NCBI RefSeq assembly: GCF_014195095.1
Contig: NZ_JACIBC010000004.1
Span: forward strand, 372,001-436,000
Direction: 5' to 3'
Length of the DNA stretch: 64,000 bases
From: Rhizobium sp. BK602
GTDB lineage: Bacteria > Pseudomonadota > Alphaproteobacteria > Rhizobiales > Rhizobiaceae
Below are positions 5,799 through 26,344 of the stretch, one piece after another (the first letter of the stretch is position 1; every line of letters starts with the position of its first letter). A model generated the notes under the pieces. That model had not been told where the DNA came from. It ran no database searches and saw only the letters and a program-made list of their open reading frames with translations. The position numbers and the translations under genes were made by a program.

Positions 5799-5921
5799 TT
5801 TCGACGCCAGATCCGAGAATATTTGCCACCAGTATGGCGATATCCAGCAGGAAAGAAAAGAAAATCCGTCAAAGCCGGAGCATAATTGCATGGATATCGC
5901 GGCATCTGGGAGGATCGGCAC
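5799..5921. promoter_or_regulatory. Divergent lrp-phhA promoter region
   Basis: A 123-bp intergenic stretch that must hold both divergent promoters. An imperfect inverted repeat lies at 5819-5843 (ATATTTGCC facing GGCGATAT) within locally AT-rich DNA, a plausible Lrp-type site but not a clear consensus. A GGGAGGA ribosome-binding site lies a few bases before the phhA ATG. No confident -35/-10 pair could be assigned. Confidence 0.35.
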
Positions 5922-6732: not shown

Positions 6733-7254
6733 TCAATGCGTCGACAGAGGCTGCGGCTGGCTCTGGCGGCTACGGGCCACGGTGAGCTCGGAGGTGGTGT
6801 GATTGAGGCGGTCCGCAAGGACGCGCATGATCTCGACGGCCATTTCGGGGAAATCGCTGAGCAGCTTCAGGAAGTGCTCCTTGCTGATCTTCAGGGCTTC
6901 CAATCGCGACGTCGCCTTGACGGTCGCGGTGCGGGAGACGTCGCAGAGAATGGCGATCTCGCCGACGATGGAATTGATGTCGACTTCTGCGACCTTGATC
7001 TCGCCTGCGGGACTGTCGACAAGAATATCAGCAGTTCCTGAAAGAACAACATAGGCCGCATCACCCTGATCGCCTTGATGAAACAGTGCCTGGCCGGCAT
7101 TGTAGCTGACGCGATCCGAGGTAAATGCCAAAAGCTTCAATTTTGCTGGCGCGATGCGCGAAAAAATCGGCACCCGTTTCAGCATTTCAACTTCGTCTTT
7201 CAGAAGCATGAGCTTCAAATCCCCAGTTTCAGGCCCCAGATACCCCTGCCCCAT
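6733..7254 (-). CDS. Stand-alone cyclic nucleotide-binding domain protein
   Basis: A 173-residue protein made almost entirely of one CRP-type cNMP-binding beta-roll (about residues 22-145) with no helix-turn-helix after it. The phosphate-binding cassette reads VGEIAILCDVSRTATV with the key Glu99 and Arg108 present, so binding of cAMP or cGMP is plausible. It starts 7 bp after the stop of the 904-residue ABC protein and is probably translated from the same message, so the likely job is to confer cyclic-nucleotide control on that protein or its neighbours. An internal ATG at 7209 is an alternative start that would remove 15 residues. It converges on phhA, 19 bp away. The partner is inferred from position only. 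Confidence 0.85.
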   Translation of the reverse strand: MGQGYLGPETGDLKLMLLKDEVEMLKRVPIFSRIAPAKLKLLAFTSDRVSYNAGQALFHQGDQGDAAYVVLSGTADILVDSPAGEIKVAEVDINSIVGEIAILCDVSRTATVKATSRLEALKISKEHFLKLLSDFPEMAVEIMRVLADRLNHTTSELTVARSRQSQPQPLSTH

Positions 7255-7261
7255 TAGGATA

Positions 7262-9976
7262 TTACGATAACAGTTCTTTGAACATACCGTTTTTTTCTAA
7301 AAGATCGCTCGTCGTGCCGCTTTCGACAAGACTGCCATGGTTGAACACCAGAACGCGGTCGAATAGCTCGGCGAAGCCAGGATTCGTCAGAACCCAGATG
7401 ACCGCGGGCGCATAATCCCCCCGGTCGAGTCCGGTCAGGATGGCGCGCGCAATCTGTTCCTGGACGCGGTGGTCCAATGCCGACAGCGGGCGGTTGCAGA
7501 TGATGTAGTCGGCGCGCTTCAGCAAGGCGCGGCTGAGATTGAGCTTCTGACGCTGCACGTTGGTCAGCCGCTTGCCGCCGGAGCCGACGTTGAAATCCAG
7601 CCCGATCGACAGCACGCTATCCTGCAAGCCCAGCCGTTCGAAGACGTCGTACATGATGGAATGGATGCGCTCCGGCGCATTGGCCTGCTGATGCGCGATC
7701 CTGCCGAACAGCACATTGTCCATCAAGGTCGCCGAGGCGGTGAAACGCTCGGGATCGTAGCGCTCGATCACCCGCGCGAGATCGGCGGGAATGTGCTCGT
7801 AGAACTTGATGCGCGTGGCAACGATCTTCTCCATCAGCGTCTGCGTCAGCAGACCGAAGCGGTGGCGGGGTTCGATATAGGAGAAGCTCAGGCGGATGAT
7901 GGCCGCCCGTTCGTCCGGTGTGGCCGCCGCGTAACCCTTGCCGTTCAGTTTCTGCAGCATCGCCTCATAGGTCGGAATATCTTCCGGCGTCATGAAGGTG
8001 AGCTGCTGGAAGAAGGGATGGTCCGGCGGCAGGTCGGTGAAGAGCTCGACCGCGTTCTCGGCGATCTCCAGACCCATGTCGTAGAGATCGTTGTTGAGGC
8101 CGGTCTCCGTGAACAATTGCCGGAAATAGGGATGGGCGGCAAGCTGGCGATTGGTCATCAGATGCCGGTTCAGCGTGCCGAACAGCAGGTTTTCGCCGAC
8201 GGTGGCCTGCGAATTATAGGCATCGAATTCGAAGGGAACGACGAGATCCTCGAGATGTTCCTCCTTCAGCCTGAGCCGCAGCGCCTGGCGCAGCTCGACG
8301 ATGCGCGAGGTGAGGTCCTCATGGGTGGCCACATCGACGGTCGAGCGCAACGCCATGTCGAGAATGTCCTGCGACATGGCAACGGCATCGAGCACCGGCC
8401 GGATGGCCGCATAGATATCGTTCGGTCCGGTGGCGCCGGCGGAGGCATAATCGACCCAATCGCTGTTGAGATCGAGTTCCGGATTGCCGGCACGGCGGGC
8501 TTCGGCCATCTGCCATTTCATCGCGCTGGCTTCGGCATCGTCATAGACGGCGGCGGCCAGGGGCGCATGTTTCAGGCCGTAAAGAAGGTTGCTGCGCAAC
8601 GTGCCATCGAAGAAGAACGTTTCCGACGAGGCATAGGCGATGCGCCGCCCGGTGAGCGATTCCGGCAGTTCCAGCAGATCGTGGCCGTCGATGGTGATGC
8701 GGCCGCTATCCGGCCAGATCAACCGTCCGAAGGCTTCGGCGAGGTATTCGCCACCGGCACCGCTCTCGCCGACGATCGCCACCTTCTCGCTCGGATTAAT
8801 CTCCACCGACACATGGTCCAGGACACGCGCGCCGCTGTCGTCGACAATGGTGAGGTTCGTCGCGACCAGCGGATGGGTCAGGCGGCCGGCGGGTGCCGGG
8901 GAGACAAGCTGGATCCTCGGCGCGATCAGGTCGTCGACGCTGAACTGCTCGACCACCTGATTGTACTTGACCTGCACGTCCTGGCGCGACTGATCCCAGT
9001 CGATCAGCTCCTTCAGCGGCCCCGGCAGATCCTTGTAGGCATTGATGACGGCCACGAGCTGACCGATATCCAGCCGGCCCTGCAGCGCGAAGAAACCGCC
9101 GATCGAATAGAAGAGGAACGGCGTCACCTGGGCGAGGAAGTTGTTGATGAATTTCACCAGGAACTTCCACTGATAGAGATCGTAGCGGATCTTGAAGATC
9201 AGCCCGAGGCGGTGGGCGATGTCGGCGCGCTCGAGATTGGTGGTGTCGTTGGCATGGATCATGCTGATGCCCTCGACGATCTCGCCGACGCGGCCCGACA
9301 GTTCGCGTGCCGTCAACTGCCGCTGGCGGCCGAGGTCGAGCAGTCGCTTGCGCATGCGCGGGATGACGATCGCCTGCACGGCAACGATTGCCGCGGCGAT
9401 CATACCCAGCCAGAAATTCTGCATGATGATGAAGACGAGCGCGGTGATCGCCTGGCCGCCGAGAAGCGCCGGCTGCACGAAGGCATCGCCGGTGAAGCCG
9501 CCCATCGGCTCCACCTCGTCCTTGATCATGGTGGCGATCTCGGCCGGCTTGACCCGCTTGAACTGCGACGGCGGGAAGCGCAGCACGCGGTCGATCAGCT
9601 CGAAGCGGATGCGGCGCAGCATGCGCTCGCCGAGCCGACCCTTATAGGTATTGATATAGAGCTTGAAGAGGCCGTTGAGGACGACGAGCGCCAGGAACAC
9701 CAGGCTGAGTGCGATCAGCATCCAGAACCGGGTGAGCTGCAGACCCTGAAACACCTCGACATGCCCGAGCAGCGGCAGATCGAAAGCGATATGCATGAAG
9801 GTCTGGGTATCGCCGGGATGCTCGAACCCCTTGCCCTGGATCGGTCCGTTGACGATCTGCTTCGGCAGGTCGAAGGACAGAAAGTAAGGGATCATCGAGG
9901 CCGCGACGATCGTCAGGATCCAGATCTGCTCCAGCCGGGTGTTCGACCAGATGTAACGCGCTAGGCTTTTTTCCAT
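7262..9976 (-). CDS. Atypical ABC half-exporter with degenerate, split ATPase domain
   Basis: A 904-residue protein. Residues 1-335 form an exporter-type ABC transmembrane domain with about six hydrophobic segments. The nucleotide-binding domain begins near 375, but Walker A is GESGAGGE at 403-410 (no Lys or Ser/Thr), the Walker B/catalytic region is IICNRPLSALD (Asn and Arg in place of Asp and Glu) and the H-loop His is Asn (LTNPGF). Between the Q-loop region (about 450) and the signature-like RLTNVQRQ (803) lies an insertion of about 280 residues. A motif of the type ATxxxNLLFG occurs three times, at about 458, 591 and 749, as if the Q-loop region had been copied. ATP hydrolysis looks unlikely. 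It is paired with a cNMP-binding protein and lies downstream of a glycosyltransferase trio. Confidence 0.85.
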   Translation of the reverse strand: MEKSLARYIWSNTRLEQIWILTIVAASMIPYFLSFDLPKQIVNGPIQGKGFEHPGDTQTFMHIAFDLPLLGHVEVFQGLQLTRFWMLIALSLVFLALVVLNGLFKLYINTYKGRLGERMLRRIRFELIDRVLRFPPSQFKRVKPAEIATMIKDEVEPMGGFTGDAFVQPALLGGQAITALVFIIMQNFWLGMIAAAIVAVQAIVIPRMRKRLLDLGRQRQLTARELSGRVGEIVEGISMIHANDTTNLERADIAHRLGLIFKIRYDLYQWKFLVKFINNFLAQVTPFLFYSIGGFFALQGRLDIGQLVAVINAYKDLPGPLKELIDWDQSRQDVQVKYNQVVEQFSVDDLIAPRIQLVSPAPAGRLTHPLVATNLTIVDDSGARVLDHVSVEINPSEKVAIVGESGAGGEYLAEAFGRLIWPDSGRITIDGHDLLELPESLTGRRIAYASSETFFFDGTLRSNLLYGLKHAPLAAAVYDDAEASAMKWQMAEARRAGNPELDLNSDWVDYASAGATGPNDIYAAIRPVLDAVAMSQDILDMALRSTVDVATHEDLTSRIVELRQALRLRLKEEHLEDLVVPFEFDAYNSQATVGENLLFGTLNRHLMTNRQLAAHPYFRQLFTETGLNNDLYDMGLEIAENAVELFTDLPPDHPFFQQLTFMTPEDIPTYEAMLQKLNGKGYAAATPDERAAIIRLSFSYIEPRHRFGLLTQTLMEKIVATRIKFYEHIPADLARVIERYDPERFTASATLMDNVLFGRIAHQQANAPERIHSIMYDVFERLGLQDSVLSIGLDFNVGSGGKRLTNVQRQKLNLSRALLKRADYIICNRPLSALDHRVQEQIARAILTGLDRGDYAPAVIWVLTNPGFAELFDRVLVFNHGSLVESGTTSDLLEKNGMFKELLS

Positions 9977-10197: not shown

Positions 10198-11355
10198 TCA
10201 CCCCGATATTGACCGTAAATCACGCATGATCGCCGCTGTCCGCTCCGCACCGGAAAGGTCGATATCGGCGGTCGATGGCTTTGGCCGCGACAGCGCCTTG
10301 TCGATGGCGCCGACCAGCAGATCCGTCGTCAACCCCGCCTCCGGCAGGGCGAGCGCCAAGCCGAGTTTCTCGAGACGCTCGGCACGCACGGACTGTTCGG
10401 TTTCGCCACCGGCCGTAAATGGAACCAGAATGGAACGACAGCCGGTGACGAGGAGATCCCCGACCGTGTTATAACCCGCCTGCGAGATCGACAATTCCGC
10501 GCCGCGCAACAGCGACGGGAAATCCTTGCGGAACCGGACCACCGTCACATTGCCGGGCGCATCCGTCGCCAGGCCGGCAAAATCCTGTTCCGGCAGGTTC
10601 GGCCCGGTCACCAGCAGCCAGCGCCGATCGGTCGCGATGCGGCTTGCCGCCTCCAGCGAGGCGCGGATCAGGTCGCGCCCGACCGCGCCGCCGCCGGCCG
10701 ACACCACGATGTCGAAGACTTCGACCGGTTCCGGCGGCAAGGGCGGCGCCACGATGCCGGTATAGGTGATCTTGTCGGAAATCGCCGCCGTCAGCGGAAA
10801 GGTTTCCTCCAGCCGGACGAAGCCCGGATCGCCATGGACGAGAACACCGTCGAAATGCTCGCGGAGCAATTTCACCGTCTCCTCGTCGCGCCCCGGCTTC
10901 TTCTGCTGCTGCAGGATGTCGCGCACCGAGGTAAAGAGCTTCGGCCTGGGATCGGCCTTGGCGATGGCATCGAGCAGCGGCAGCAGTTCGAAGCGCATCT
11001 GGCGGCGACCGAAGGGGAAGGCTTCGATGATGACCACGTCGGGCTCGGCCGCGCGAAAAGCCTCCAGCAGCAGGTCGCGCCGCGCCGAGAGAAATTCCTC
11101 GCCGGCAGCCTCGCCCGCCTGATCGGCCAGGCCGGAAAAGCCGGCACTGCTGGCAACGACCGGCGGCAGGGTGACGGATGTGACATCGGGTCCGGGAAAA
11201 CCACTGACCGGCAAGCCGCCGGTGACCACCGTCACCTGGCAGCCGTCCCTAGCCATGGCACTGGCGATGCGGCTGGCGCGGGCGAGATGGCCGATGCCGA
11301 GCAGATGCTGGACGTAGAAGAATACCCGCGGAGACGATGTCTGGAGGGCCGTCAT
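10198..11355 (-). CDS. GT-B fold glycosyltransferase (MurG/family 28-like)
   Basis: A 385-residue cytoplasmic glycosyltransferase-like protein. The N-terminal half begins RVFFYVQHLLGIGHLARA, a glycine/histidine loop typical of GT-B acceptor domains; the C-terminal half has a sugar-nucleotide-binding signature region with SISQAGYNTVGDLL and VPFTAGGETEQSVRAERL, as in MurG-type C-terminal domains. The start was chosen because its ATG overlaps the upstream stop as ATGA (11352-11355), indicating translational coupling. It is the last of three consecutive glycosyltransferase genes that probably build one glycan or glycolipid. Donor and acceptor are unknown. Confidence 0.82.
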   Translation of the reverse strand: MTALQTSSPRVFFYVQHLLGIGHLARASRIASAMARDGCQVTVVTGGLPVSGFPGPDVTSVTLPPVVASSAGFSGLADQAGEAAGEEFLSARRDLLLEAFRAAEPDVVIIEAFPFGRRQMRFELLPLLDAIAKADPRPKLFTSVRDILQQQKKPGRDEETVKLLREHFDGVLVHGDPGFVRLEETFPLTAAISDKITYTGIVAPPLPPEPVEVFDIVVSAGGGAVGRDLIRASLEAASRIATDRRWLLVTGPNLPEQDFAGLATDAPGNVTVVRFRKDFPSLLRGAELSISQAGYNTVGDLLVTGCRSILVPFTAGGETEQSVRAERLEKLGLALALPEAGLTTDLLVGAIDKALSRPKPSTADIDLSGAERTAAIMRDLRSISG

Positions 11356-12611
11356 GCTGATTTCCGCCACTGCTCTTCCTTTTGCCACTGCTCCTCGAAC
11401 AGCCGCGTCAATTGCCGGATGCTGGAATGATGGTCGAAATGCTCGCGCACCCGCCGTTCGGCGGCGTCACCCAGCCGATGGCGCAGCGCCGGGTCGCGGA
11501 TCGCCCGTTCCAGTGCCACTGCCAGCGCTTGCGGGTCCTCCGGCGGCACCACGAAACCATTCTCACCATCGGTCAGAAGTTCCGGCACGCCGGAAATATG
11601 GGTCGACAGGCAGGGGAGACGCTGGCTCGAGGCTTCCACAAGCACGTTCGGCAAACCGTCGCGATCGCCATCGGCCGCGACCCGGCAGGCCAGCGCGAAA
11701 AGGTCCGCCTGGCGATAATGGGATAGCACCTCTTCCTGCGCCAGCGCCCCTTTCCAGGTGATGCGGTCGGCGATGCCGAGCGTGTCGGCCAGTCCCTTCA
11801 GCTTGGCCAGCCCGTCGCCGCCGCCGATGTGGGTGAAGCGCCAATGGAGGTCGGCAGGCAGCAGCGCCAGTGCCTTCAAGAGCACGTCATAACCCTTCTT
11901 CTCCACGGCGCGGCCGACGCTGAGAAGGAAGACGGGATCGGAGGCCTGCGAACCGTCGCGGTCGGAATGCGCGCCGGCAAAGGGGCCGAAGCGGGCGAGA
12001 TCGAGGCCGTGATAGCTCAGATGCACATGGTCGGGCACCGAGGCCAGATCGCGCATGTGCTCGTAGCCGCTGCGAGTGCAGGTCACCGCCCAGCGGGCGC
12101 GGTCGAGCTTTTCGGAAAGCTCCCAGTCCGGCGAGGTCCAGATATCCTTGGCATGCGCCGAGCAGGTCCAGGGAATACCGGTCATGATGCTCGCATAGGC
12201 CGTCACCGAGGCCGGCGTGTGGATGAAATGCGCATGCAGCCATTCGCCATTGTCCGGCCACTCATGCGCCAGCACCAGCGCCTGTCCGAAGCGGCGCACG
12301 CGGTTCGGGGTGATATCGCGCTTCAGGTCGGCCCAGAACTGCTTCAGCAGCGGCTTGAAGCCCGGCTTGCGAATACCGGCGAAGAAGGCGCGCAGGACGC
12401 GCAGCGGCTCGTCATGGAGATATTCCGGCAGATAGACCACCCGCGCCTTGATCTCGTCATGGACGGGATGGCGCTTCTTGTCGGTCGGCCTGCGCATCGA
12501 GATCAGCGTCAGGTCGAAGCCGGCCTTTTCCAGGCCGAGCAACTCCTGCGCGATGAATGTCTCGGACAGGCGGGGATAGCCCTTGAGGACCACCAGGATC
12601 TTTTTGCGCAT
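11352..12611 (-). CDS. Family 4-like glycosyltransferase
   Basis: A 419-residue GT-B enzyme of the GT4 type. The N-terminus starts RKKILVVLKGYPRLSETFIAQE, characteristic of exopolysaccharide/colanic-acid-type transferases, and the C-terminal domain has LLSVGRAVEKKGYDVLLKAL and the E-x7-E region around LPNVLVEASSQRLPCLST followed by SGVPELLTDGENGFVVPPED. It should use a nucleotide sugar and retain the anomeric configuration. It lies 17 bp after the upstream MurG-like gene and overlaps the downstream transferase by 4 bp, so the trio is one operon. The product could be a surface polysaccharide or glycolipid; the sequence does not say which. Confidence 0.88.
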   Translation of the reverse strand: MRKKILVVLKGYPRLSETFIAQELLGLEKAGFDLTLISMRRPTDKKRHPVHDEIKARVVYLPEYLHDEPLRVLRAFFAGIRKPGFKPLLKQFWADLKRDITPNRVRRFGQALVLAHEWPDNGEWLHAHFIHTPASVTAYASIMTGIPWTCSAHAKDIWTSPDWELSEKLDRARWAVTCTRSGYEHMRDLASVPDHVHLSYHGLDLARFGPFAGAHSDRDGSQASDPVFLLSVGRAVEKKGYDVLLKALALLPADLHWRFTHIGGGDGLAKLKGLADTLGIADRITWKGALAQEEVLSHYRQADLFALACRVAADGDRDGLPNVLVEASSQRLPCLSTHISGVPELLTDGENGFVVPPEDPQALAVALERAIRDPALRHRLGDAAERRVREHFDHHSSIRQLTRLFEEQWQKEEQWRKSA

Positions 12612-12628
12612 CGACAGGTTCCGATGCT

Positions 12629-13843
12629 CTATTCGGCGACGATCGACAGCGGCGGATATTGCTCGCGGTCGTCGAACCATTCGCCGACGATGCGGGAAAT
12701 ATGCACCAGTCCTTCCAGCCGCATATTCTCGCCGCTCGCCGAGGGCGGCGCGCGCTCCGGCAGGCGCTTCAGCGCCGCGGCAAGCTGCTTCGGATCGGCC
12801 GATTCTTCCGGCAGGAGCATATCGACGAGGCCAAGCTCGCTTGCCCGCTGGGCCCGGATCAGCTGCTCCTCGCGCGGCCGCGTGCGCGGGATGATCAGCG
12901 CCGGCTTGTCGAAGGACAGGATCTCGCAATAGGTGTTGTAGCCGCCCATGGCGACCACGCCCTTGGCGCCGGCGATCAGTTCCTCCATCTTGTTGTCGAA
13001 TTCGATCACCTGAAGACAGGCAATCTTGCTGGCACGCTCCAGAAGCTGGATACGCTCCTTGGCGGGCATATAGGGGCCGAGCACGATCAAGGTCTTGTGC
13101 TGCAGGGTGTCGTCCTGCTCATAGGCGCTGACGACATCCTTGACGAGATCGGCGCCATCGCCGCCGCCGCCGGTGGTGACCAGCAGGTAGTCTTCATCCG
13201 GCACATGTTCGGACTTGGTGCCCTGCGAGGAGACGCTGCGCTGCAGGAAGCCGACGAACTCCATCTTCCGGCGCACGCCGGCGGGCACATCGAGACCGGC
13301 GAGCGGATCGTAGAAATCCGGCGGACCGTAGACCCAGACGCGGTCGTAGAACTGGTCGATCTTCTGCAGCGCGTTGTTCTTCTTCCATTCGGCGTCGAGC
13401 AGATAGGGAGCGTCCATGACGTCGCGCATGCCGAGCACCAGCGTCGTGCCGCGCGCCTTCAGATATTGCAGGGTCTCCTCGACCTCGCCCTTGAGGCCCA
13501 TCGGCTCCTTGTCGACGATGAAGATGTCGGGCTGGAAGGTCTCGGCCGTGTGGCGGATGATCGACTGGCGCATCTTCAGCGTTTCCTGAAGATCGACATG
13601 GCTCGCCATCGACGTATATTCGCCGTCGCGCAGCTTGATGACGCTCGGCACCTTCACGAAATCGACCCGCGCCCGATAATCGAAAGCGCCGGCGATGGTC
13701 GCGCCGGAAATGATCAGAACCTTCAGCCCGCGATAGTTCTCGACAAGCGCATGCGCGATCGTCCGGCATCGCCTCAGATGACCCAGCCCGAACGTGTCGT
13801 GACTGTACATGAGGATTCGAGCATCTTCTAAGCGCCGCTTCAT
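12629..13843 (-). CDS. MurG-like glycosyltransferase (family 28 C-terminal type)
   Basis: A 404-residue GT-B protein. The N-terminus has ILMYSHDTFGLGHLRRCRTIAH, and the C-terminal domain has YLLVTTGGGGDGADLV, then GVVAMGGYNTYCEILSF and ALIIPRTRPREEQLIRAQRA, the donor-site architecture of MurG and related glycolipid transferases. The ATG at 13843 is preferred over a TTG six bases upstream because GAGG lies 9 bases before it. It is first in the glycosyltransferase trio and shares a similar N-terminal histidine loop with the third member, suggesting an old duplication. The substrate is unknown; a lipid-linked acceptor is plausible for this family. Confidence 0.85.
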   Translation of the reverse strand: MKRRLEDARILMYSHDTFGLGHLRRCRTIAHALVENYRGLKVLIISGATIAGAFDYRARVDFVKVPSVIKLRDGEYTSMASHVDLQETLKMRQSIIRHTAETFQPDIFIVDKEPMGLKGEVEETLQYLKARGTTLVLGMRDVMDAPYLLDAEWKKNNALQKIDQFYDRVWVYGPPDFYDPLAGLDVPAGVRRKMEFVGFLQRSVSSQGTKSEHVPDEDYLLVTTGGGGDGADLVKDVVSAYEQDDTLQHKTLIVLGPYMPAKERIQLLERASKIACLQVIEFDNKMEELIAGAKGVVAMGGYNTYCEILSFDKPALIIPRTRPREEQLIRAQRASELGLVDMLLPEESADPKQLAAALKRLPERAPPSASGENMRLEGLVHISRIVGEWFDDREQYPPLSIVAE

Positions 13844-13945
13844 GGGCAAAAACCTCGGGGGTGGAAGTCATTTTCGCGGGGTGCTGGCACGCGCCGCCCG
13901 CAGCCGCTCTTCAAATTGCAATCCATGTCCTGGCCACGTTTTCCG

Positions 13946-15121
13946 CTATTTGTAGGGATCGGCCGCGTCGCGCAAGCCATCTCCTAAAAAGTTGAACGCC
14001 AGAATGACCAAAATGACCGGCACCATCGGGAAAAGGAGCCAGGGATAAAATGCAATGACGCTGACGCTCCTCGCCTCGGTCAAAAGGATGCCCCAGCTCG
14101 TGATCGGCGGGCGAAGGCCGAGGCCCAGGAAGCTCAGCGCGGTTTCGCCGAGGATCATGCTGGGAATCGAAATCGTCGCCGTCGCGATCAGGTGCGACAT
14201 GAACCCCGGCACCAGATGACGGCCGATGACCCGCGGCGTGCTCGCACCCATGAGCTGCGCAGCAAGAACATAGTCTTCCTCGCGCAAAGACAAGAGCTTG
14301 GAACGTACGGCGCGCGCAAGGCCGGTCCAGTCGAGGATGCCGAGGATGATGGTGATGCCGAAATAGATGAGGATCGGGCTCCAGCTCACCGGCATGATGG
14401 CGGCGAGCGCCATCCACAAGGGTAGGCTCGGCAGCGATTGCAGCACTTCGATGACACGCTGCACCAGCAGATCGAAAAGCCCGCCATGGTAGCCCGCAAG
14501 ACCGCCGATGACGATGCCCAGCACGAAACTGATGGCAATGCCGATCAGCCCGATCGTCAGCGAGATGCGCGCACCGTAGATGATGCGCGACAGGACGTCG
14601 CGCCCCAGGCGGTCGGTGCCGAGCAGATACATCTGGCCGCCGACGGCCGGACAGACCAGATGGACGTTCGAATCCACCAGGCCCCAGAAGCGATAGGCGT
14701 CGCCGCGGCAGAAGAAGCGGATCGGCTGAACATCCGCGGTATTGTCGGTATAGACCCGCCGCAGCGTATCGAGGTCGAGCGTCATCTTGCGGCCGTAGAC
14801 GAAAGGCCCGACGAACCGGCCCTTGTCGAAGAAATGGACGGCCTGCGGCGGCGAATGGATATACTCGACATTGCGCGTATGCAGACCATAGGGCGCCAGG
14901 AACTCGACGATCAGGGTCATGCCGTAAAGCAGCAACAGGAAGATGCCGGAGGCAAGCGCGAGCTTGTGCCGCTTGAACTTCCACCACATGAGCTGCTTCT
15001 GCGAGGCCATGTAATAACGCGCCTGACCGGCGGACATGGCTTCGAACTGCTCCGGATCGAAAGCGGCTGTCGAAACGTAGTGTTCGAGAGGGGCGCCGGG
15101 GCGCGGCAGGGGTGCGGTCAC
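13946..15121 (-). CDS. Peptide ABC transporter permease, YejE/DppC type with long loop
   Basis: A 391-residue permease. After the first helix (about 60-80) comes a periplasmic stretch of roughly 100 residues containing YIHSPPQAVHFFD, VYGRKMTLDLDTLRRVY and PIRFFCRGDAYRFWGL, an extension typical of the YejE-like branch and absent from ordinary DppC. The family motif LLGTDRLGRDVLSRIIYGAR follows, then the membrane domain with FLGLGLRPPITSWG. Translation starts at a GTG that overlaps the stop of the YejB-like gene as GTGA (15118-15121). It functions with the neighbouring permease, binding protein and double ATPase in uptake of an oligopeptide or peptide-conjugate. Confidence 0.92.
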   Translation of the reverse strand: MTAPLPRPGAPLEHYVSTAAFDPEQFEAMSAGQARYYMASQKQLMWWKFKRHKLALASGIFLLLLYGMTLIVEFLAPYGLHTRNVEYIHSPPQAVHFFDKGRFVGPFVYGRKMTLDLDTLRRVYTDNTADVQPIRFFCRGDAYRFWGLVDSNVHLVCPAVGGQMYLLGTDRLGRDVLSRIIYGARISLTIGLIGIAISFVLGIVIGGLAGYHGGLFDLLVQRVIEVLQSLPSLPLWMALAAIMPVSWSPILIYFGITIILGILDWTGLARAVRSKLLSLREEDYVLAAQLMGASTPRVIGRHLVPGFMSHLIATATISIPSMILGETALSFLGLGLRPPITSWGILLTEARSVSVIAFYPWLLFPMVPVILVILAFNFLGDGLRDAADPYK

Positions 15122-16116
15122 TTCGTGCTCCTGCCTTGCAAGCGGATACGGGGATCGAGGAAGCCGAGCGCGATATCCGAGATCAGCACGCCGACGACGT
15201 TCAGGAAGGCGAGGAACATCAGGAAGGAGCCGGCCAGATACATGTCCTGGCTCTGCAGCGACTTGATCAGCATCGGCCCTGTGGTCTCCAGCGACAATAC
15301 GATGGCGGTGATTTCCGCTCCCGAGATGATCGACGGCAGGATCGAGCCAATGTCGGCGACGAAGAAGTTCAGCGCCATGCGCAACGGATATTTCACCAGC
15401 GCCTTCAGGGGATGCAGCCCCTTGGCGCGAGCGGTGATGACATATTGCTTCTGCATCTCGTCGAGCAGGTTGGCGCGCAGGCGGCGGATCATGCCGGCGG
15501 TCCCCGCCGTGCCGACGATGATGACCGGTATCCACAGATGCGACAGGATCGAACGCGCCTTTTCCCAGCTCATCGGCTGCGACAGGTATTTCTGATCCAT
15601 CAGATGGCCGATGGAGACGCCGAACCAGACATTGGCGAAATACATCAGGATCAGCGCCAGCATGAAATTCGGGATGGCGATGCCGAGCAGGCCGAGGAAG
15701 GTCAAGCCGTAGTCGCCCCAGCTATATTGATGGGTGGCGGAATAGATGCCGATGGGAAACGCGATCAGCCAGGTCAGCAGGATCGTCGTCATCGACACCA
15801 GGATCGTCAGCCACAGCCTGTCGCCGACGACCTCGGAGACCGGAAGCTGATATTCGAAGGAATAGCCGAAATCGCCGTGCAGCATGCCGGCGGCCCAATA
15901 GACATATTGCAGGGCGATCGGCTTATCGAGCCCGTATTCGTGGCGAAGGGTCTCGATCTCCTGCAGGTTGGCGGTCTCGCCCTGCGCGCGCAGCTCGGCG
16001 AGCTGGCTTTCGAAGAAGTCGCCGGGCGGCAGCTGGATGATGGTGAAGACCAGTATCGAGATGACGATCAGCGTCGGGACCATCACCGCAAGGCGCCAGA
16101 GGATGTATTTAAGCAT
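15118..16116 (-). CDS. Peptide ABC transporter permease, YejB/DppB type
   Basis: A 332-residue inner-membrane permease with an N-terminal helix (residues 8-30, LAVMVPTLIVISILVFTIIQ) and the DppB-type motif PPGDFFESQ, then five more helices and the coupling segment VITARAKGLHPLKALVKYPLR. The C-terminal DIALGFLDPRIRLQG is conserved in the family. It overlaps the upstream binding-protein gene by 8 bp and the downstream permease by 4 bp, so stoichiometric translation is likely. With its partner permease it would form the membrane channel of the importer. Confidence 0.93.
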   Translation of the reverse strand: MLKYILWRLAVMVPTLIVISILVFTIIQLPPGDFFESQLAELRAQGETANLQEIETLRHEYGLDKPIALQYVYWAAGMLHGDFGYSFEYQLPVSEVVGDRLWLTILVSMTTILLTWLIAFPIGIYSATHQYSWGDYGLTFLGLLGIAIPNFMLALILMYFANVWFGVSIGHLMDQKYLSQPMSWEKARSILSHLWIPVIIVGTAGTAGMIRRLRANLLDEMQKQYVITARAKGLHPLKALVKYPLRMALNFFVADIGSILPSIISGAEITAIVLSLETTGPMLIKSLQSQDMYLAGSFLMFLAFLNVVGVLISDIALGFLDPRIRLQGRSTK

Positions 16117-18025
16117 GGGGCTTATCCTCCTTCAGCCAGAAAGTATCGGGCATATAGACGCCGAGATAGCAGGTCGGATCGAAACCGAAGAGCGCTTTCT
16201 CCGGCACGTTTTGCAGGCTGGTGGCATGAAGGATCGGCTGCATCGTGCCGTTGATCAGGCCGATGGAGAAGACCTGGTCGGTATAGATCGCCAGCATCTG
16301 ATGCCATATCTGGGCACGCTCGAAGGAGGACGCCGCCTTTCCCCATTCGCCGAGAAGCCTGACCAGCTCCACCGCCTCCGGCACGTCCGGCGCGACGCCC
16401 TGAGTCTGGCGGGAAAGATAATACATGCCCCAGAGCGGCCATTGCATCTGGTCGTCCATTGTCGGCGCGAGCTGACCGGGATTCATGTCGGCGGTCGCCA
16501 CACCATTGTCGAGGCCGTACCAGATCGACATCATGATGCGGCCGCCCATGGCGCGGCTGCGGAAAATATCGCGCTGCGAGACGCGCGTGAACAGCGCGAT
16601 GCCGATCTTGCGCCAATGATCGGTGATCAGTTCCAGGACATCCGTGTCGAGCGTGCTTTCGCCGGGGGTCTCGACCGTGATCTCCGCCGGCCGGCCGTCC
16701 GGCAGCAGGCGGATGCCGTCCTCGTCGCGCTTGTCGAGGCCTGCGGCATCGAGCAGCGCATTGGCCTGATCGGGATCATGCGAAATCCACGCCGCGGCAT
16801 ATTCCGGCCTGTAGAGCGGACTGTCGGGCAGGACGGTGTCGGCGCTCTCCGTGCCGAGACCATAGAAGACGGCCATGTTGATCTCGTGGCGGTCGATCGC
16901 CAGCGACAAGGCCCGGCGAACGCGTACGTCGCGCAGCACTGCCCGCCAGACCTCATCGGCGCTGTTGAGGTTCGGCAGCAGAGCGACGCGTGAACCGCGC
17001 GTCGATTTCCAGAGATTGACCTTCACCGGATAGTGCTTCTCCGCCTCCTTGAGGAGGGTATAGTCGTTGAAGTCCATGCCGGTCGCCTGCAGGTCGCTTT
17101 CGCCGGCATTGGCCTTGGCCGTTATGATCGACGGCGAGCTGATGCTCAGCACGAAACGATCGACATAGGGCAGCTGCCGGCCATTCTCGTCGACGCGGTG
17201 GAAATAGGGATTGCGCTCGAAAACGAATTGCTCGGCCGGCGGCGCCGTCGTATTGCGCCAGGGATCGAGCACGGGCAGCTTGGGGTTTTCCGGCCTGTAG
17301 GCGCGGCCCTTCTTGATGTGCATGTCCTGCCACTTGCGCACGCGCGCTTCCTGCATCAGCGAGGCGAGCCGGATACTGTCCTGATATTTCTTGTGGAACT
17401 GCTTCAGGTAGTGCGCCGGGCCGGAGATCACCAGCGGCTGCGGCGCGGCCAGGCTCGGCAGGAAATCCGGATTGGGCTCGTCCCACGTATAGCGCACCGT
17501 CAGATCGTCGAGCACCTCGAAGCGCGGCAGGCTGCCATGCGGGCGCAGCTCCAGCGCGCCGCCGCCCGGCGTCAGCTCCTTGTTGAGGATGACGTCTTCC
17601 CACCAGTAGCGGAAATCCTCCGAGGTAAAGGGCTTACCATCCGACCACTTGTGGCCCGCACGCAGTTTGAAGGTGAAGACGCAATCGTTGAGGGCGGAAT
17701 AGGATTCGAGAATATCCGGCTGCAGCGTCAATGTCTGGTCGTAACCGACAAGACGGGCATAGCCATAGATGGTCATGAAACGGATATCGTTCTGGCTGCC
17801 GATGATGGTGCGCACCGTGCCGCCATAATGACCGGGCACGCGCCCGAGCGCCTTGACGTTGACGACGCGCGGAAATTTCGGGATGCGCTTGACCAGCGGC
17901 GGCATCTGGCCGGCACGCAGCCAATCGGCCAGAAACTCCGGTTCGTTGTCCACTTCCGCCGCTCTCAGCTGAAACGGCAGTAGGCTGGAGGCCATGAGGC
18001 CAAGGAAGGTTCGACGGCTTACCAC
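16109..18025 (-). CDS. Family 5 extracellular solute-binding protein with Tat-type signal
   Basis: A 638-residue periplasmic binding protein of the peptide/nickel-binding family (SBP_bac_5). The N-terminus MVSRRTFLGLMASSLLPF carries a twin-arginine (SRRTFLGL) signal followed by a hydrophobic stretch and an LRAAE-like cleavage region, so folded export by Tat is likely. The mature protein has the family pattern FKLRAGHKWSDGKPFTSEDF and, later, RRALSLAIDRHEINMAVFYG. At about 640 residues it is in the long YejA-like class. It is encoded in an operon with its ATPase upstream and permeases downstream. The substrate is not evident. Confidence 0.92.
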   Translation of the reverse strand: MVSRRTFLGLMASSLLPFQLRAAEVDNEPEFLADWLRAGQMPPLVKRIPKFPRVVNVKALGRVPGHYGGTVRTIIGSQNDIRFMTIYGYARLVGYDQTLTLQPDILESYSALNDCVFTFKLRAGHKWSDGKPFTSEDFRYWWEDVILNKELTPGGGALELRPHGSLPRFEVLDDLTVRYTWDEPNPDFLPSLAAPQPLVISGPAHYLKQFHKKYQDSIRLASLMQEARVRKWQDMHIKKGRAYRPENPKLPVLDPWRNTTAPPAEQFVFERNPYFHRVDENGRQLPYVDRFVLSISSPSIITAKANAGESDLQATGMDFNDYTLLKEAEKHYPVKVNLWKSTRGSRVALLPNLNSADEVWRAVLRDVRVRRALSLAIDRHEINMAVFYGLGTESADTVLPDSPLYRPEYAAAWISHDPDQANALLDAAGLDKRDEDGIRLLPDGRPAEITVETPGESTLDTDVLELITDHWRKIGIALFTRVSQRDIFRSRAMGGRIMMSIWYGLDNGVATADMNPGQLAPTMDDQMQWPLWGMYYLSRQTQGVAPDVPEAVELVRLLGEWGKAASSFERAQIWHQMLAIYTDQVFSIGLINGTMQPILHATSLQNVPEKALFGFDPTCYLGVYMPDTFWLKEDKPHA

Positions 18026-19917
18026 GTGCGCAGTTCCTGAACATCGGCGCCGCGGCGAGCGCGCACGAAATGACCGCCGCCAAGATCGGCATAGGCAAGA
18101 TCCCCATCCTCGCTTTCCGCGAATTGCGGCCCCCAGCTCTGCTTGGCGGCCGGACCTTCGCTGTTCAAGGCGGAGAAATCAAGCGGCCGGTCGAGATCGG
18201 GGAATGGCACCGCGGCGAGCAGCGAGCGGGTATAGGGATGAACGGGATCGCGCAGGATGATCTCGCGCGGGGCAATCTCGACGATGCGGCCGCGCGCCAT
18301 GACGGCGATGCGGTCGGCCATATAGTCGACGACGGCGAGATTGTGCGAAATGAACAGATAGGTCAGACCAAGCTGCTTCTGCAAATCCTTGAGAAGATTG
18401 AGGATCTGCGCCTGGACGGAGACGTCGAGCGCCGAGACGGGCTCGTCGAGGATCAGCAGCTTCGGCCCCAGCGCCAGGGCGCGGGCGATGCCGATGCGCT
18501 GGCGCTGGCCGCCGGAAAAGCTGTGGGGATAGCGGCTCAGATAGTGCTGATCGAGCCCGATCGCCTGCATCAGCCCCTTGACCTTCTCCTGGCGCTCGGC
18601 GCTGTCGCCGTGCCCGTGGATCTCCAGCGGCTCGCTCAGGATATTGCGGATCGTCATGCGCGGCGACAGGGAGGAGACCGGGTCCTGGAACACCATCTGG
18701 ATCTTCGTGCGCAGATCCATCAGCGCGTCGCCCTTGGCGGCAAGCACGTCGATCTTGCCGTCGCCGTCGTCGAAGGACACCGAGCCGCCATCGGCGGTGA
18801 CAGCACGCATCAGGATCTTGCTGACCGTCGTCTTGCCGCAGCCGCTTTCGCCGACGAGGCCAAGACACTCGCCGCGGCGGATATCGAAGCTCACGTCGTC
18901 GACGGCGCGAAACGTCGTGCCCTCGCGCCGGCCGAACAGCCCGCTTCCCTTCGACGTATAGGTCTTGGAAAGATTGCGCACGCTCAGCAGCACCTCGGGC
19001 GCTGCCGCAACATCGGCCTTGGCCTTCTTCTTGCCGGAGAAGGTGCCGAGATTGACCGGCACGTCGCGCAGCGATTTCAGCCGCTCGCCCGGCTTCATGT
19101 CGAAATGCGGCACAGCCGACATCAGCGCCTTGAGATAGCGGTGCTTGGGTTGGCGGAAGATCGTCTCGACCGGCCCGGCCTCCATGATCTCACCGTGATA
19201 GATGACCACGACCTCGTCGGCCATGTTGGCGACGACGCCGAGATCATGGGTGATCAGCAGGATCGCCATGTTGAACTTTTGCTGCAGATTGCGCAGCAGA
19301 CCGAGGATCTGCGCCTGGATGGTGACGTCGAGCGCCGTCGTCGGCTCGTCGGCGATCAGAAGCGCGGGATTGCAGATCAGCGCCATGGCGATCATCGCGC
19401 GCTGGCGCATGCCGCCCGACAGTTCGAAAGGATACATGTCGAAGGTGCGCTGCGGATTCTGGAAGCCGACGAGGCTCAGCATCTCCTCGGTCTTTTCGCG
19501 CTGCTCCGCCTTGCTGCTGGCGGGATCGTGGATGCGGAGCGCCTCGCTGATCTGATTGCCGACGGTGTGCAGCGGCGACAGCGACGTCATCGGTTCCTGG
19601 AAGATGTTGGCCATGCGCGCACCGCGCAACTGACGTATCTCAACGCCGTCGCGCGGCAATTGCAGAATGTCGGTGGTGCGGCCGTCGAGCGGGTCGGTGA
19701 ACAGGATGCGGCCGCTCGCCTGCGCCGGCGTCGGCAGAATGCCCATGATCGACTGACTGATGATCGACTTGCCGGAGCCGGACTCGCCGACCAATGCCGT
19801 CACCTTTCCGGGCAGGACCCGCAGGTTGGCATTCTTGACCACGCGAAGCTTGTCCCCATAGATGGAGAAGGCGACGTCGAGGTTCTCGATACGCAATAAA
19901 TCAGTCCCTGACGCCAT
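18019..19917 (-). CDS. Fused double ATP-binding protein of peptide ABC transporter (YejF-like)
   Basis: A 632-residue protein with two ABC ATPase domains. Domain 1 has GESGSGKSI, LSGGMRQRAM and IADEPTTALD; domain 2 has GESGCGKTT, FSGGQRQRIG and ILDEPVSALD, both with intact Walker B and H-loop regions (ITHDLG, ISHNLA). A linker of about 50 residues rich in Lys and Ala (GKKKAKADVAAAPE) separates them. It is first in the transporter operon and overlaps the binding-protein start by 7 bp, an order (ATPase first) that differs from the usual binding-protein-first arrangement. It powers the importer formed by the next three genes. Confidence 0.93.
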   Translation of the reverse strand: MASGTDLLRIENLDVAFSIYGDKLRVVKNANLRVLPGKVTALVGESGSGKSIISQSIMGILPTPAQASGRILFTDPLDGRTTDILQLPRDGVEIRQLRGARMANIFQEPMTSLSPLHTVGNQISEALRIHDPASSKAEQREKTEEMLSLVGFQNPQRTFDMYPFELSGGMRQRAMIAMALICNPALLIADEPTTALDVTIQAQILGLLRNLQQKFNMAILLITHDLGVVANMADEVVVIYHGEIMEAGPVETIFRQPKHRYLKALMSAVPHFDMKPGERLKSLRDVPVNLGTFSGKKKAKADVAAAPEVLLSVRNLSKTYTSKGSGLFGRREGTTFRAVDDVSFDIRRGECLGLVGESGCGKTTVSKILMRAVTADGGSVSFDDGDGKIDVLAAKGDALMDLRTKIQMVFQDPVSSLSPRMTIRNILSEPLEIHGHGDSAERQEKVKGLMQAIGLDQHYLSRYPHSFSGGQRQRIGIARALALGPKLLILDEPVSALDVSVQAQILNLLKDLQKQLGLTYLFISHNLAVVDYMADRIAVMARGRIVEIAPREIILRDPVHPYTRSLLAAVPFPDLDRPLDFSALNSEGPAAKQSWGPQFAESEDGDLAYADLGGGHFVRARRGADVQELRTW

Positions 19918-20079: not shown

Positions 20080-21420
20080 TCATTGAATAAACTTTTCGAC
20101 TTGCGGACGCTTCTCGAATTTCTTTGCATCGCGATGGAGAAGAATGACCTGCTCGGCCTCCGACAGACCGTCGATCGCGGTATCGTGAAAAACATCCGCC
20201 ATCCTGCCAGTCGCGGCATTGGCCTTGGGATGCACGACGGTGAAGCGCTGGCGCACGCCGCGCAGCTTCTCCTCGCCGAGCGTGACCCATTCGCAGTCGG
20301 TATAGCCGGAGAAAGCCTGGCTCGCGACCACTTCCGTCACATATTTCTTCGTCAGGCCCTGCAATCGCTGCACCTCATTGACGGCGGCGCCGAAGGCGGA
20401 GAAGGTCAAGCGATCCTTCAGCCCGACATTGCCGAACATCACATTGCCGACATGCAGGCCTATGCCGTAGCGGACTTCGCCGAGGCCTCTTGCCTGGCGA
20501 TCCTTGTTGAGCGCGGTCACCCGGCTCTGTGCCTGGAAGACGGCCGACAGCGCCGCCTCGCAAGCGACCTTCGAGGGGTCCTTGTGCCGGCCGCAGGGAT
20601 AGACGGCGAGGAAGCCATCGCCGAGGAAACTCAGGATCTCGCCGCCATTGCGGTTGAACGGCGCGGCGATGGCGTCGAAAAACTCGTTCAACGTATCGAT
20701 ATAGGCCTGGCGGCCTTCCTTTTCGGCATAGACGGTGGATTGCCGCATGTCGCCCATGACCAGAGCGGCCCGGATCGTCTCGCCGTCGCCACGGCGGATC
20801 TGGCCGTTCAGCACGCGCTTGCCGGCATCGCCACCGAGATAGGTGGTGAGCATGTTGTTGGCGAGCTTGCCGAGAACCGCCATCTTGGCGGCCATGGCGA
20901 GATGGTTCTGCAGGCGCATCAGCGCGCCGATCATTTCCTCGCTGAAACCGCTCATGCTGTCGGTCGACCAGGAGCCCATCATCCCCTGCGCCGAACCCGC
21001 GTCGAAGGTCTGGACGAAGGCGATATAGTCGGTGATCTTTTCCTGGCGCAGATCCTCGAAGACGGGGAATTCCAGCGGTCCGTCGGCATCGATCCGGCGG
21101 CGCAGATGCAGAAGATTGTTGGCGAGCAGGTAATAATAAGGGCTTCGTACGAAGCGCTCCGGCTTGTCGTCCGCATGCCGATAGCCCTCGATCGTCAACC
21201 CGCCGGCACGCCGCCAGGTAAAGCCGAGCGCATCATAGAGCGGATGCAGCATCGAAAAGGTCAGGTGCACGCGGGCGATCGGCAGGCCGGCGGCGGCAAT
21301 GCGTTCGCAGAAGCCACGAACGATCGTCTCCAGATTCTCGCCCGTCAGCGCCGCTTGGGTCAGCCATTCGGCGACCTTGTCCAGAAAAATATCCGAAACA
21401 CTCGAATGGACTGTCATCAT
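20080..21420 (-). CDS. Class III nucleotide cyclase with N-terminal sensor-like region
   Basis: A 446-residue soluble protein. Residues 1-190 form an uncharacterised N-terminal region (HLTFSMLHPLYDALGFTWRR is recurrent in alphaproteobacterial cyclases), and residues 210-395 form a class III cyclase domain. Both metal-binding Asp are visible (Asp224 in MGDMRQST, Asp268 in FLGDGFLAV), and the transition-state Asn348 and Arg352 are present (VNEVQRL). The base-recognition positions are unusual: the normal Lys is Ser264 and the normal Asp is Ala at about 345, so it matches neither classical adenylate nor guanylate cyclases. It lies upstream of the peptide transporter and near two further cyclase-like genes. 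The product nucleotide is uncertain. Confidence 0.85.
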   Translation of the reverse strand: MMTVHSSVSDIFLDKVAEWLTQAALTGENLETIVRGFCERIAAAGLPIARVHLTFSMLHPLYDALGFTWRRAGGLTIEGYRHADDKPERFVRSPYYYLLANNLLHLRRRIDADGPLEFPVFEDLRQEKITDYIAFVQTFDAGSAQGMMGSWSTDSMSGFSEEMIGALMRLQNHLAMAAKMAVLGKLANNMLTTYLGGDAGKRVLNGQIRRGDGETIRAALVMGDMRQSTVYAEKEGRQAYIDTLNEFFDAIAAPFNRNGGEILSFLGDGFLAVYPCGRHKDPSKVACEAALSAVFQAQSRVTALNKDRQARGLGEVRYGIGLHVGNVMFGNVGLKDRLTFSAFGAAVNEVQRLQGLTKKYVTEVVASQAFSGYTDCEWVTLGEEKLRGVRQRFTVVHPKANAATGRMADVFHDTAIDGLSEAEQVILLHRDAKKFEKRPQVEKFIQ

Positions 21421-21747: not shown

Positions 21748-22947
21748 TCACGATATGCCGGCCGCCGGCCGCGAAGCGGAAAGGCCTTCGCCATCGCGCA
21801 GCTTGTCACGCAGCGCCATGGCGGCCATGGCGTAGCCGCCATCGGCGCCGTCGATGAAATGCATGTGATCGCGCATCAGCGGCGTCGGCACGAAGCAGGT
21901 CATCAGGGCGCTGTCCTGCCGGTGCAGGCCGTAGCGGCAGACGCCTTCCGCCTCCGCCTCGCGCAAGCGCGCCTCGATGCGCGCGAGGTGGGATGCATCG
22001 ACATCGATGGTCATCTTCAGCCCGTCGTCGAACTTGCGGAAATCCGAATTCGCGGCGAGATCGCGCCGATAGATCTTGGCGTCGAAGGTCGCGGCGCGGA
22101 TGCCGAACTTGTCGAGAATGTAAACGAGCACGATCTGGGCCGCGATCGAAAGCTTGCGCCACCAGCGATGGGCGACCGGCATCGTGGCGCGGGCCTCGAT
22201 CTCGGCTCCCTCGAAAGCGAGCACCGGCGTCGGTCCTTCGACAGGCACGGGATGGGCGTCGCGGTTCTGCTCCGCGGAAATGGTTATGATATCGGCGACG
22301 AGGCGGCGGAATTCGGGACCGCTGCCGGCCGCATCCGGCACGGCGATGATCGAAACGATCTCGCCATTATGCGCCGCGATCGGGTTCCATCGGCAGGAAA
22401 GGCCGGTCAGATCGGGCCGTATCTCCGGCGGCGCGGCTTCGACGGCGAAACGGCCGGCCTTCATCTGCTTTTCCGCCCAGCTCGCGCCGCCGCCGACGAA
22501 CATGGCGTAGGAGACGAATTCGCTGGGGCTGAAGCGGGCGACCCGCACGTCCAGCCCCTCGGCCCGGATATCGGCCATGGACACCAGCGCGGCGCGCAGG
22601 CTGAGCCGCAGCTCTTCCGCAACCCATGTCCGCACCGCCGCCAGCGCTGCGCGCGTGCGGCTTTCGCCGGAGGGCGGAATGGCGACCAGGGCACCGTCGC
22701 CGCCGAAGACAAAGGGATAGTCGCCATGATCTAGCGCGTTGAGCACGGCCGAAATCACGCTGGCGCCGGCCATGTTGACGGACTTGTATTGACCGGAGGC
22801 AATCGCCTGCGTCGAACTGACGATATCGGCCACCGCCAGGAACCAGTCATCCGGAAGCGGGTGGTAGTTGCCGCCATCGGTCACGCCCTCGAACCGGGTG
22901 AAGCCCGGCAAGGTCCGGAAGAAATCGTCCTTCGATGGATCGGTCAT
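21748..22947 (-). CDS. DUF3095 family protein, cyclase-like
   Basis: A 399-residue protein of the DUF3095 family. The N-terminal part resembles a nucleotide-cyclase/GGDEF palm: VADIVSSTQAIASGQYKSVN carries an Asp where class III cyclases bind metal, and FVFGGDGALVAIP carries a second GGD turn. The C-terminal third (FDDGLKMTIDVDASHLARIE and QDSALMTCFVP) is family-specific. The ATG at 22947 is preferred over one six bases upstream because the AGGGGG site is then correctly spaced. The family function is unpublished as far as I know. Its position between a class III cyclase and a membrane Fe-S cyclase supports a nucleotide-related role. Confidence 0.8.
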   Translation of the reverse strand: MTDPSKDDFFRTLPGFTRFEGVTDGGNYHPLPDDWFLAVADIVSSTQAIASGQYKSVNMAGASVISAVLNALDHGDYPFVFGGDGALVAIPPSGESRTRAALAAVRTWVAEELRLSLRAALVSMADIRAEGLDVRVARFSPSEFVSYAMFVGGGASWAEKQMKAGRFAVEAAPPEIRPDLTGLSCRWNPIAAHNGEIVSIIAVPDAAGSGPEFRRLVADIITISAEQNRDAHPVPVEGPTPVLAFEGAEIEARATMPVAHRWWRKLSIAAQIVLVYILDKFGIRAATFDAKIYRRDLAANSDFRKFDDGLKMTIDVDASHLARIEARLREAEAEGVCRYGLHRQDSALMTCFVPTPLMRDHMHFIDGADGGYAMAAMALRDKLRDGEGLSASRPAAGIS

Positions 22948-23095
22948 GATCATCCCCCTTCACCGACGAGCGCCGCGACAACTTATCCCTATAGCAACCG
23001 CATCGAAAAGCCAGCGGGCGGTCGACGCGGCGATACCACCCATGATACTCCGGCTGCGGGAGAGAGACCACGATGCCAAAGACGAGACAGATACG
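22948..23095. promoter_or_regulatory. Divergent promoter region between DUF3095 and methyltransferase genes
   Basis: About 150 bp between two divergent starts, so promoters for both should lie here. No clear operator or sigma-70 boxes could be assigned by eye. Confidence 0.3.
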
Positions 23096-26283: not shown

Positions 26284-26344
26284 TTTACATTGTCCGTTCA
26301 CAAGGGAACGGAAAAGGGTTATCGCCTAATCCTCTAGCCGCAAT

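Follow-up and report, generated by a model that had tools for sequence, protein, structure and literature searches.

What does an ABC exporter do once it has lost the residues with which it would hydrolyze ATP? The question is raised by a gene of Rhizobium sp. BK602 (Alphaproteobacteria, Rhizobiaceae), located on the reverse strand at positions 7262–9976 of a 64,000-nucleotide stretch of contig NZ_JACIBC010000004.1 (assembly GCF_014195095.1, positions 372,001–436,000), hereafter the window. An initial annotation, made from the letters alone, had described its product as an ABC half-exporter with a dead ATPase and a large insertion. ABC proteins are defined by their use of ATP, and this one belongs to a large, strongly selected family that keeps the architecture and loses the chemistry; a conserved predicted receptor site for another nucleotide adjoins the ATP-dead protein. 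The case raises the questions of second-messenger gating of an ABC membrane domain and of the role of a nucleotide-binding domain (NBD) after ATP loss. It also draws attention to a glycan pathway retained in genera from Rhizobium to Azospirillum and Sulfitobacter, of which literature searches, mostly of the open-access literature, returned no description; nor did they find by title any description of the ABC family or the locus.

The open frame of 904 amino acids (aa) has the domains of a half-exporter, as first proposed. ABC_membrane (PF00664) matches residues 85–311 (E 1.2e-17, 64.9 bits vs. a cut-off of 28), and ABC_tran (PF00005) matches, in split form, only residues 386–492 (E 4.9e-14, 53.5 bits vs. 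a cut-off of 25). NCBIfam models built on canonical exporters align with two separate parts of the protein (e.g., MsbA best at residues 85–481, a CydD model best at residues 748–903), which is the same split that the initial annotation had put at about 280 residues; the insertion covers residues 468–746 and is 279 aa long. Peptidase families and the SbmA/BacA family were absent from the Pfam result for this protein (E 0.01). The full-length structure model (pLDDT 69 overall, poor over the transmembrane domain, TMD) superposes badly, with whole-chain Foldseek root mean square deviations (rmsd) of about 20 Å or more, so we relied on residues 355–904 (550 residues), whose best model reached a pLDDT of 86 and a pTM of 0.79. 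Among the 50 matches listed, this model aligns with solved NBDs over 237–250 residues (Z 24.5–26.4, rmsd 2.2–2.9). The top match is the ComA NBD (3vx4; Z 26.4, rmsd 2.2, 240 residues); IrtAB, TmrAB, TM287/288, MsbA, SUR, and TAP match at Z 24.5–25.5, mostly over 244–250 residues. Most aligned ranges span the model from its first to its last residue. The structure prediction suggested at the outset thus yields an exporter NBD fold that is predicted to be complete, and, as less than half of the modeled residues align to solved NBDs, about 300 would be extra to a whole NBD. By descent and predicted fold, the protein is a type I ABC exporter without the defining chemistry.

The losses themselves were examined using the usual definitions of the Walker, signature, Q-loop, and switch motifs and of the cassette of cyclic-nucleotide-binding (cNMP) domains. 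As initially read, the Walker A motif (GESGAGGEY) lacks both the Lys and the Ser/Thr, replaced by Gly409 and Glu410, and the Walker B Asp and the catalytic Glu are both absent, replaced by Asn828 and Arg829. The signature reads LTNVQRQ where LSGGQ is expected, and Ser451 aligns with the Gln of the Q-loop. The switch His had been reported as Asn; its loss holds, but its identity does not, since the position aligns with Thr864, and Asn865, the next residue, aligns with the Arg of the "HR" of relatives. With Lys, Ser/Thr, Asp, Glu, and the switch His all replaced, the window protein stands at the extreme of its family, and we infer that it has no ATPase activity.

These positions were tallied in 139 family representatives (<80% identity, at least 700 aa), drawn from 290 member open reading frames (ORFs) that include many genes fetched twice and four ORFs shorter than 700 aa. 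Only 2 of the 139 have the complete set of Lys, Ser/Thr, Asp, and Glu. At the Walker A Lys position, 65 have Lys and 44 have Arg (109 with either), and the Ser/Thr position is Glu in 62, Asp in 42, and Ser/Thr in 12. The Walker B Asp is kept in 26 and replaced by Asn in 73 and Ser in 23; 58 retain the catalytic Glu, 35 the switch His, and 100 the signature Ser/Thr. On a quick TMD tree, the minimum number of state changes is 21 for Lys, 15 for Asp, 23 for Glu, and 20 for His. Loss of both Mg2+-binding side chains appears as a trend common to most members, and the loss of Lys in the Rhizobium branch looks like an additional step. The two members keeping all four residues, L184:7851-11249 (also fused to a cNMP domain) and L222:8655-11351, are useful for asking how ATPase loss started.

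A second anomaly is the insertion. A motif occurring three times had been interpreted at the outset as repeated copying of the Q-loop region, and profile–profile alignment, including to canonical exporters, supports that interpretation. Using hhalign, we compared slices of the family alignment corresponding to residues 430–555 (copy 1, which holds the original Q-loop), 556–690 (copy 2), and 705–800 (copy 3). Copies 2 and 3 align with a probability of 99.1% (E 1e-18, 79 columns), copies 1 and 2 with 94.6% (E 7e-8, 55 columns), and copies 1 and 3 with 92.6% (E 5e-7, 70 columns). Control slices from the TMD and other NBD parts reach at most 2.3%, barring one pair with shared columns by design, whose 94.0% comes solely from shared residues 430–445; nested slice pairs score high likewise. 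Given this gap between copy pairs and unrelated slices, the repeat goes beyond chance. The Q-loop-to-signature slice of five canonical exporters matches copy 1 at 97.5% (23 columns), copy 2 at 86.3% (20 columns, little beyond the motif), and copy 3 at 92.2% (47 columns; 95.8% with slice 733–812), and unrelated slices at <1%. The copy-to-copy alignment extends beyond the ten-residue motif into the following helices. A profile of the insertion alone also matches copy 3 (E 1e-7 to 1e-6 in four class genomes); it has more than one match in 191 of the 290 member ORFs, many of them marginal, and all of the 40 matches listed correspond to copy 3. The motif Asn is retained at copies 1, 2, and 3 in 133, 139, and 138 of the 139 representatives, in which the insertion measures 236–351 aa. 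On these alignments, the NBD's own Q-loop segment is present in two extra copies, three in all. We take the triplicated segment to be the NBD surface that meets the coupling helices in exporters.

The relative conservation of the domains is also unusual. Averaged over 1500 sampled pairs, identity is 50% in the TMD and 36–38% in the NBD parts and the insertion; pair by pair, the TMD has a higher identity than the NBD in 8941 of 9591 comparisons of family representatives. In canonical exporters, NBD identity exceeds TMD identity in 10 of 10 pairs, in a control of five proteins from the same genus and order, three of which are close relatives. The order of conservation thus appears reversed relative to canonical exporters. 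Searching the class with the TMD profile recovered proteins of 323–425 aa in 8 of 115 genomes (E 1e-32 to 1e-93); no nearer TMD relatives from outside the family turned up in the class sample, where exporter-length non-members matched just at about 1e-17. Short relatives are also found in some Rhizobium genomes (five examined, 349–417 aa). None of these short proteins has room for an NBD, so membrane domains of this kind persist without one. Short TMD-only proteins of about 320–425 aa were collected at 14 loci (L296–L300 and L306–L314), near which the glycosyltransferases of the cluster were not found; one weak cNMP match, one importer-ATPase-like ORF, and one 276-aa ABC-like ORF were present.

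The family is widespread in alphaproteobacteria and under purifying selection. Of 36 genomes of the genus, 35 carry a full-length relative without stops, and the 36th has one in two contig pieces; elsewhere in the order, 8 of 24 genomes of other families have a long relative (query 1 to at least 828, 32–53% identity). Among the carriers are species of Rhizobium, Phyllobacterium, Agrobacterium, Neorhizobium, and Brucella/Ochrobactrum, and 262 plasmid records contain a relative at E <= 1e-80, also from Sinorhizobium, Azospirillum, Ruegeria, and Sulfitobacter. The search for homologs sharing the insertion, another of the checks initially suggested, detected it with the insertion-alone profile in 131 of 385 sampled genomes of the class. 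In a phylum sample it was found in 31 of 398 genomes, all 31 from the same class or nearer (the non-class share of the 398 is not listed). For five close pairs, dN/dS is 0.05–0.16 for the TMD, both NBD parts, and the insertion. A phage origin was considered and rejected, with merely weak exporter matches of 21–24% identity in four phage records, covering 27–39% of the query. In the Sinorhizobium meliloti 1021 record (L192:16667-19433), the ABC gene lies in two overlapping frames; a full-length match is present in other S. meliloti records.

The ABC gene has a frequent companion. In the window, the 173-aa protein encoded just downstream contains a predicted cNMP domain whose Gly-Glu...Arg cassette, at about residues 96–111, is intact (Gly98, Glu99, Arg108). 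In relatives, the Gly is conserved in 94 of 94 sequences, the Glu in 88, and the Arg in all 94. The survey covered 100 representative loci for which 9 kb or more of context was available, the window itself excluded; a gene counted as immediately downstream if it was on the same strand and its end overlapped that of the ABC gene or lay no more than 200 bp from it (median distance 4 bp, with ORFs taken from stop to stop). A cNMP protein is immediately downstream in 76 loci. In 14 of 15 other loci, where the ABC protein exceeds 1000 aa, a cNMP domain is fused at its C-terminus. Ten loci are left, and in four of them a different ORF has a cNMP match, three of these ORFs overlapping the ABC gene. 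PF00027 was found in all five proteins longer than 1000 aa among eight submitted to Pfam. As the window genome contains just six PF00027 matches in 6.3 Mb, the probability of a chance adjacency is negligible.

A second association is with GT28b, a glycosyltransferase encoded upstream. Among the 385 class genomes, 124 have both GT28b (E <= 1e-60) and the insertion (E <= 1e-5), 7 the insertion only, 3 GT28b only, and 251 neither (Fisher's p 7e-88, phylogeny ignored). Among the seven genomes with the insertion only, two have a completeness of just 63% and 82%, and genomes with both include cases on different contigs (e.g., G327 and G101). This near-obligate pairing is a stronger link between the ABC protein and a glycosyltransferase than gene order provides.

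The combination of a dead ATP site, a conserved cNMP site, constraint on the TMD, and a glycosyltransferase partner suggests a gate or flippase switched by a cyclic nucleotide. We give an even chance to the proposal that the protein serves a glycan pathway as a membrane device with an ABC fold, under the control of a cyclic nucleotide and not powered by ATP hydrolysis of its own. It would be one half of a homodimeric membrane protein with the shape of an ABC exporter, from which ATP hydrolysis has been lost and in which the TMD keeps a specific job, most likely to pass or flip a glycan or glycolipid made with the neighboring GT28 and GT4 enzymes. The NBD would have a structural and regulatory role, its size increased by two added copies of the segment through which ordinary exporters contact the TMD, and the ATP input would be replaced, at least as a switch, by the adjacent or, in some lineages, fused cNMP domain. 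The triplicated segment may serve this coupling, conjecturally by widening the contact with the TMD or by binding the cNMP protein. A pure gate would require no drive. Given the cNMP partner and the glycan context, a signal-controlled membrane device is more likely than an ATP-driven pump. With clearly less confidence, we tentatively extend the proposal to a class-wide family, in which an exporter would have been rebuilt as a cyclic-nucleotide-gated gate or flippase for surface glycans, with abandonment of the ATP site, triplication of the segment, and recruitment and repeated fusion of the cNMP partner as the source of the gating signal.

Several observations weigh against this proposal. Five of the 100 loci have no cNMP protein, and one more ends at a contig edge. 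Because relatives of the cyclases lie within the context of only 17 of the 100 loci, any assignment of the nucleotide's source and identity is tentative, and, according to an excerpt of PMC10986499, the cNMP domain of HetC binds ppGpp in vitro. None of GT28a, GT28b, and GT4 is within the context of 36 of the 100 loci; the neighbor counts have no background rate, and several of the neighbor families are common. Only the best of the five models of residues 355–904 is good, the other four having pLDDT values of 63–75, and the full-length model is weak over the TMD. Co-occurrence and purifying selection do not demonstrate transport. Finally, some family members may still bind nucleotide, as the numbers retaining Lys (or Arg), the catalytic Glu, the switch His, and the signature Ser/Thr indicate.

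The main rival is a receptor or scaffold through which nothing moves: a membrane anchor that holds the glycosyltransferases and the cNMP sensor together through its dead NBD and triplicated segment, with the cyclic nucleotide switching glycan synthesis. The dead ATP motifs, the near-obligate GT28b partner, the enlarged NBD, and the conserved cNMP cassette would all suit such a role. As the TMD is the best-conserved part of the protein and has short TMD-only relatives, a function inside the membrane domain is favored, and we regard the anchor as possible, though doubtful. It is less probable, and on the whole unlikely, that the protein is a residual nucleotide machine that binds ATP without the normal Mg2+ ligands and works the TMD through binding or very slow hydrolysis. 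This would fit the intact NBD fold, the Lys or Arg found at the Walker A Lys position of most representatives, and the two members with all four residues. Against it, those four residues are all replaced in the window protein, and the repeated changes of Lys (at least 21) and Asp (at least 15) on the TMD tree are those expected under relaxed constraint. Still less probable is a heterodimer like TM287/288 or TmrAB, with this protein as the degenerate half and a competent ABC exporter as the other. According to an excerpt of PMC7756269, eukaryotic exporters frequently have a degenerate site, one of their two, and the window genome has other exporters, with six matches to a canonical exporter at E <= 1e-80; in the neighborhoods of the 100 loci, an ABC-exporter-like ORF was found at just 3, with weak matches at two of these. 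A sequencing error (the refutation that the initial annotation had foreseen), a chimera, or a decaying pseudogene, which the degenerate motifs of the single sequence could have suggested, is excluded by the conservation in 35 of 36 genomes of the genus and in 131 of 385 of the class and by the purifying selection.

Known systems offer partial parallels to the proposed cyclic-nucleotide-controlled device. The homodimeric type I exporters MsbA, PCAT1, and ComA (NBD) share its TMD family, NBD fold, and TMD–NBD order, whereas the window protein has lost the ATP motifs, carries three Q-loop segments, and has a TMD more conserved than its NBD. Non-canonical residues in nucleotide-site motifs are shared with TM287/288, TmrAB, ABCB11, and CFTR (excerpt of PMC7756269), the first two of which are also structural matches to the model of residues 355–904. 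These exporters have one degenerate and one working site, whereas a homodimer of the window protein would have both dead. A precedent for an ABC-type membrane domain without ATP hydrolysis is provided by SbmA/BacA (SLiPT), SbmA running on the proton gradient according to an excerpt of PMC13316013, and TMD-only relatives exist here too. Unlike SbmA, which has no NBD, the window protein has a large one and matches ABC_membrane and not the SbmA/BacA Pfam family. HetC of Nostoc is likewise an ABC exporter joined to a cNMP domain, there required for function (excerpt of PMC10986499), so an ABC exporter can depend on such a domain. However, in HetC the cNMP domain is N-terminal, a C39 peptidase is present, and an ATPase residue is essential, whereas the window protein has no peptidase match and has lost the ATP motifs.

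Table 1. Positions of the ABC gene, its motifs, and neighboring genes in the window
Feature	Coordinates	Strand	Basis
Pseudo-ATPase ABC half-exporter P0001	7262..9976	-	Open frame of 904 aa; Pfam ABC_membrane and ABC_tran
TMD, residues 1-345	8942..9976	-	PF00664; region identities; best-conserved part of the family
NBD part 1, residues 370-467	8576..8869	-	ABC_tran match; model; VIA alignment
Degenerate Walker A GESGAGGEY, residues 403-411 (Lys to Gly409, Ser/Thr to Glu410)	8744..8770	-	
Motif copy 1 GTLRSNLLYG, residues 458-467, in the original Q-loop segment	8576..8605	-	
Insertion, residues 468-746 (279 aa), with the extra Q-loop segment copies	7739..8575	-	
Motif copy 2 ATVGENLLFG, residues 591-600	8177..8206	-	
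Motif copy 3 ATLMDNVLFG, residues 749-758, leading into the signature	7703..7732	-	
Degenerate signature LTNVQRQ, residues 804-810	7547..7567	-	
Degenerate Walker B, residues 824-829 (Asp to Asn828, catalytic Glu to Arg829)	7490..7507	-	
Switch-His position, Thr864	7385..7387	-	Alignment to relatives
Predicted cNMP protein, 173 aa, 7 bp downstream of the ABC gene	6733..7254	-	PF00027, E 4.1e-19, 68.8 bits
GT28a, glycosyltransferase with GT28 C-terminal domain	10198..11388	-	PF04101
GT4-type glycosyltransferase, longest ORF	11352..12929	-	PF00534
GT28b glycosyltransferase, co-occurring with the ABC family	12629..13849	-	Pfam; co-occurrence
Oligopeptide-type ABC importer: two permease ORFs, binding protein (16109-18025), fused ATPase (18019-19917)	13946..19917	-	
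Class III adenylate/guanylate cyclase	20080..21420	-	PF00211
DUF3095 protein	21748..22953	-	PF11294; recurrent neighbor in Rhizobiales loci

The genes surrounding the ABC gene (table 1) recur in part elsewhere. Near the 100 loci, relatives of GT28b were found at 62, GT4 at 62, a second GT4 at 55, GT28a at 53, a histidine phosphatase at 45, the importer ATPase at 43, a deacetylase-like protein at 42 (a label taken from the annotation of the records, Pfam giving no family for the one example tested), an MBL-fold hydrolase at 12, a nucleotide-sugar dehydrogenase at 4, and DUF3095 at 3. The annotation of R. johnstonii pRL11 shows the cyclase, the importer, three glycosyltransferases, the ABC protein, and the cNMP protein in this order, and by similarity S. 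meliloti pSymB has it too; the gene order of the importer is identical in these two species. Cyclase genes also occur in the R. johnstonii, Mesorhizobium, and S. meliloti loci, and the Mesorhizobium locus additionally contains the MBL hydrolase, the deacetylase, the nucleotide-sugar dehydrogenase, and DUF3095. The importer was assigned from Pfam matches to SBP_bac_5, ABC_tran in two stretches, and oligo_HPY, and its permeases from similarity to an annotated locus. As the domain matches in the GT4-type ORF start near residue 118, its true start is probably later than that of the longest frame. A report that SMb20804 and SMb20805 affect the K-antigen capsule (excerpt of PMC5539429) could not be linked to this locus and was not used. 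In a promoter and terminator scan, sites were no more numerous than in shuffled sequences.

Other genes of the window adjoin the cluster on both sides. Next to the cNMP gene lie a phenylalanine 4-monooxygenase gene (5886-6713, +) and, divergent from it, a gene for an Lrp/AsnC-type regulator (5337-5921, -). A second class III cyclase (24550-26301, -), with a Pfam 2Fe-2S ferredoxin domain and a hydrophobic N-terminal region, has relatives near 10 of the 100 loci. An ORF at 22868-23575 (+) resembles, by eye only, a Methyltransf_17 protein that recurs near the ABC gene elsewhere, and a Pfam match identifies an FkbM-type methyltransferase at 23642-24520 (-).

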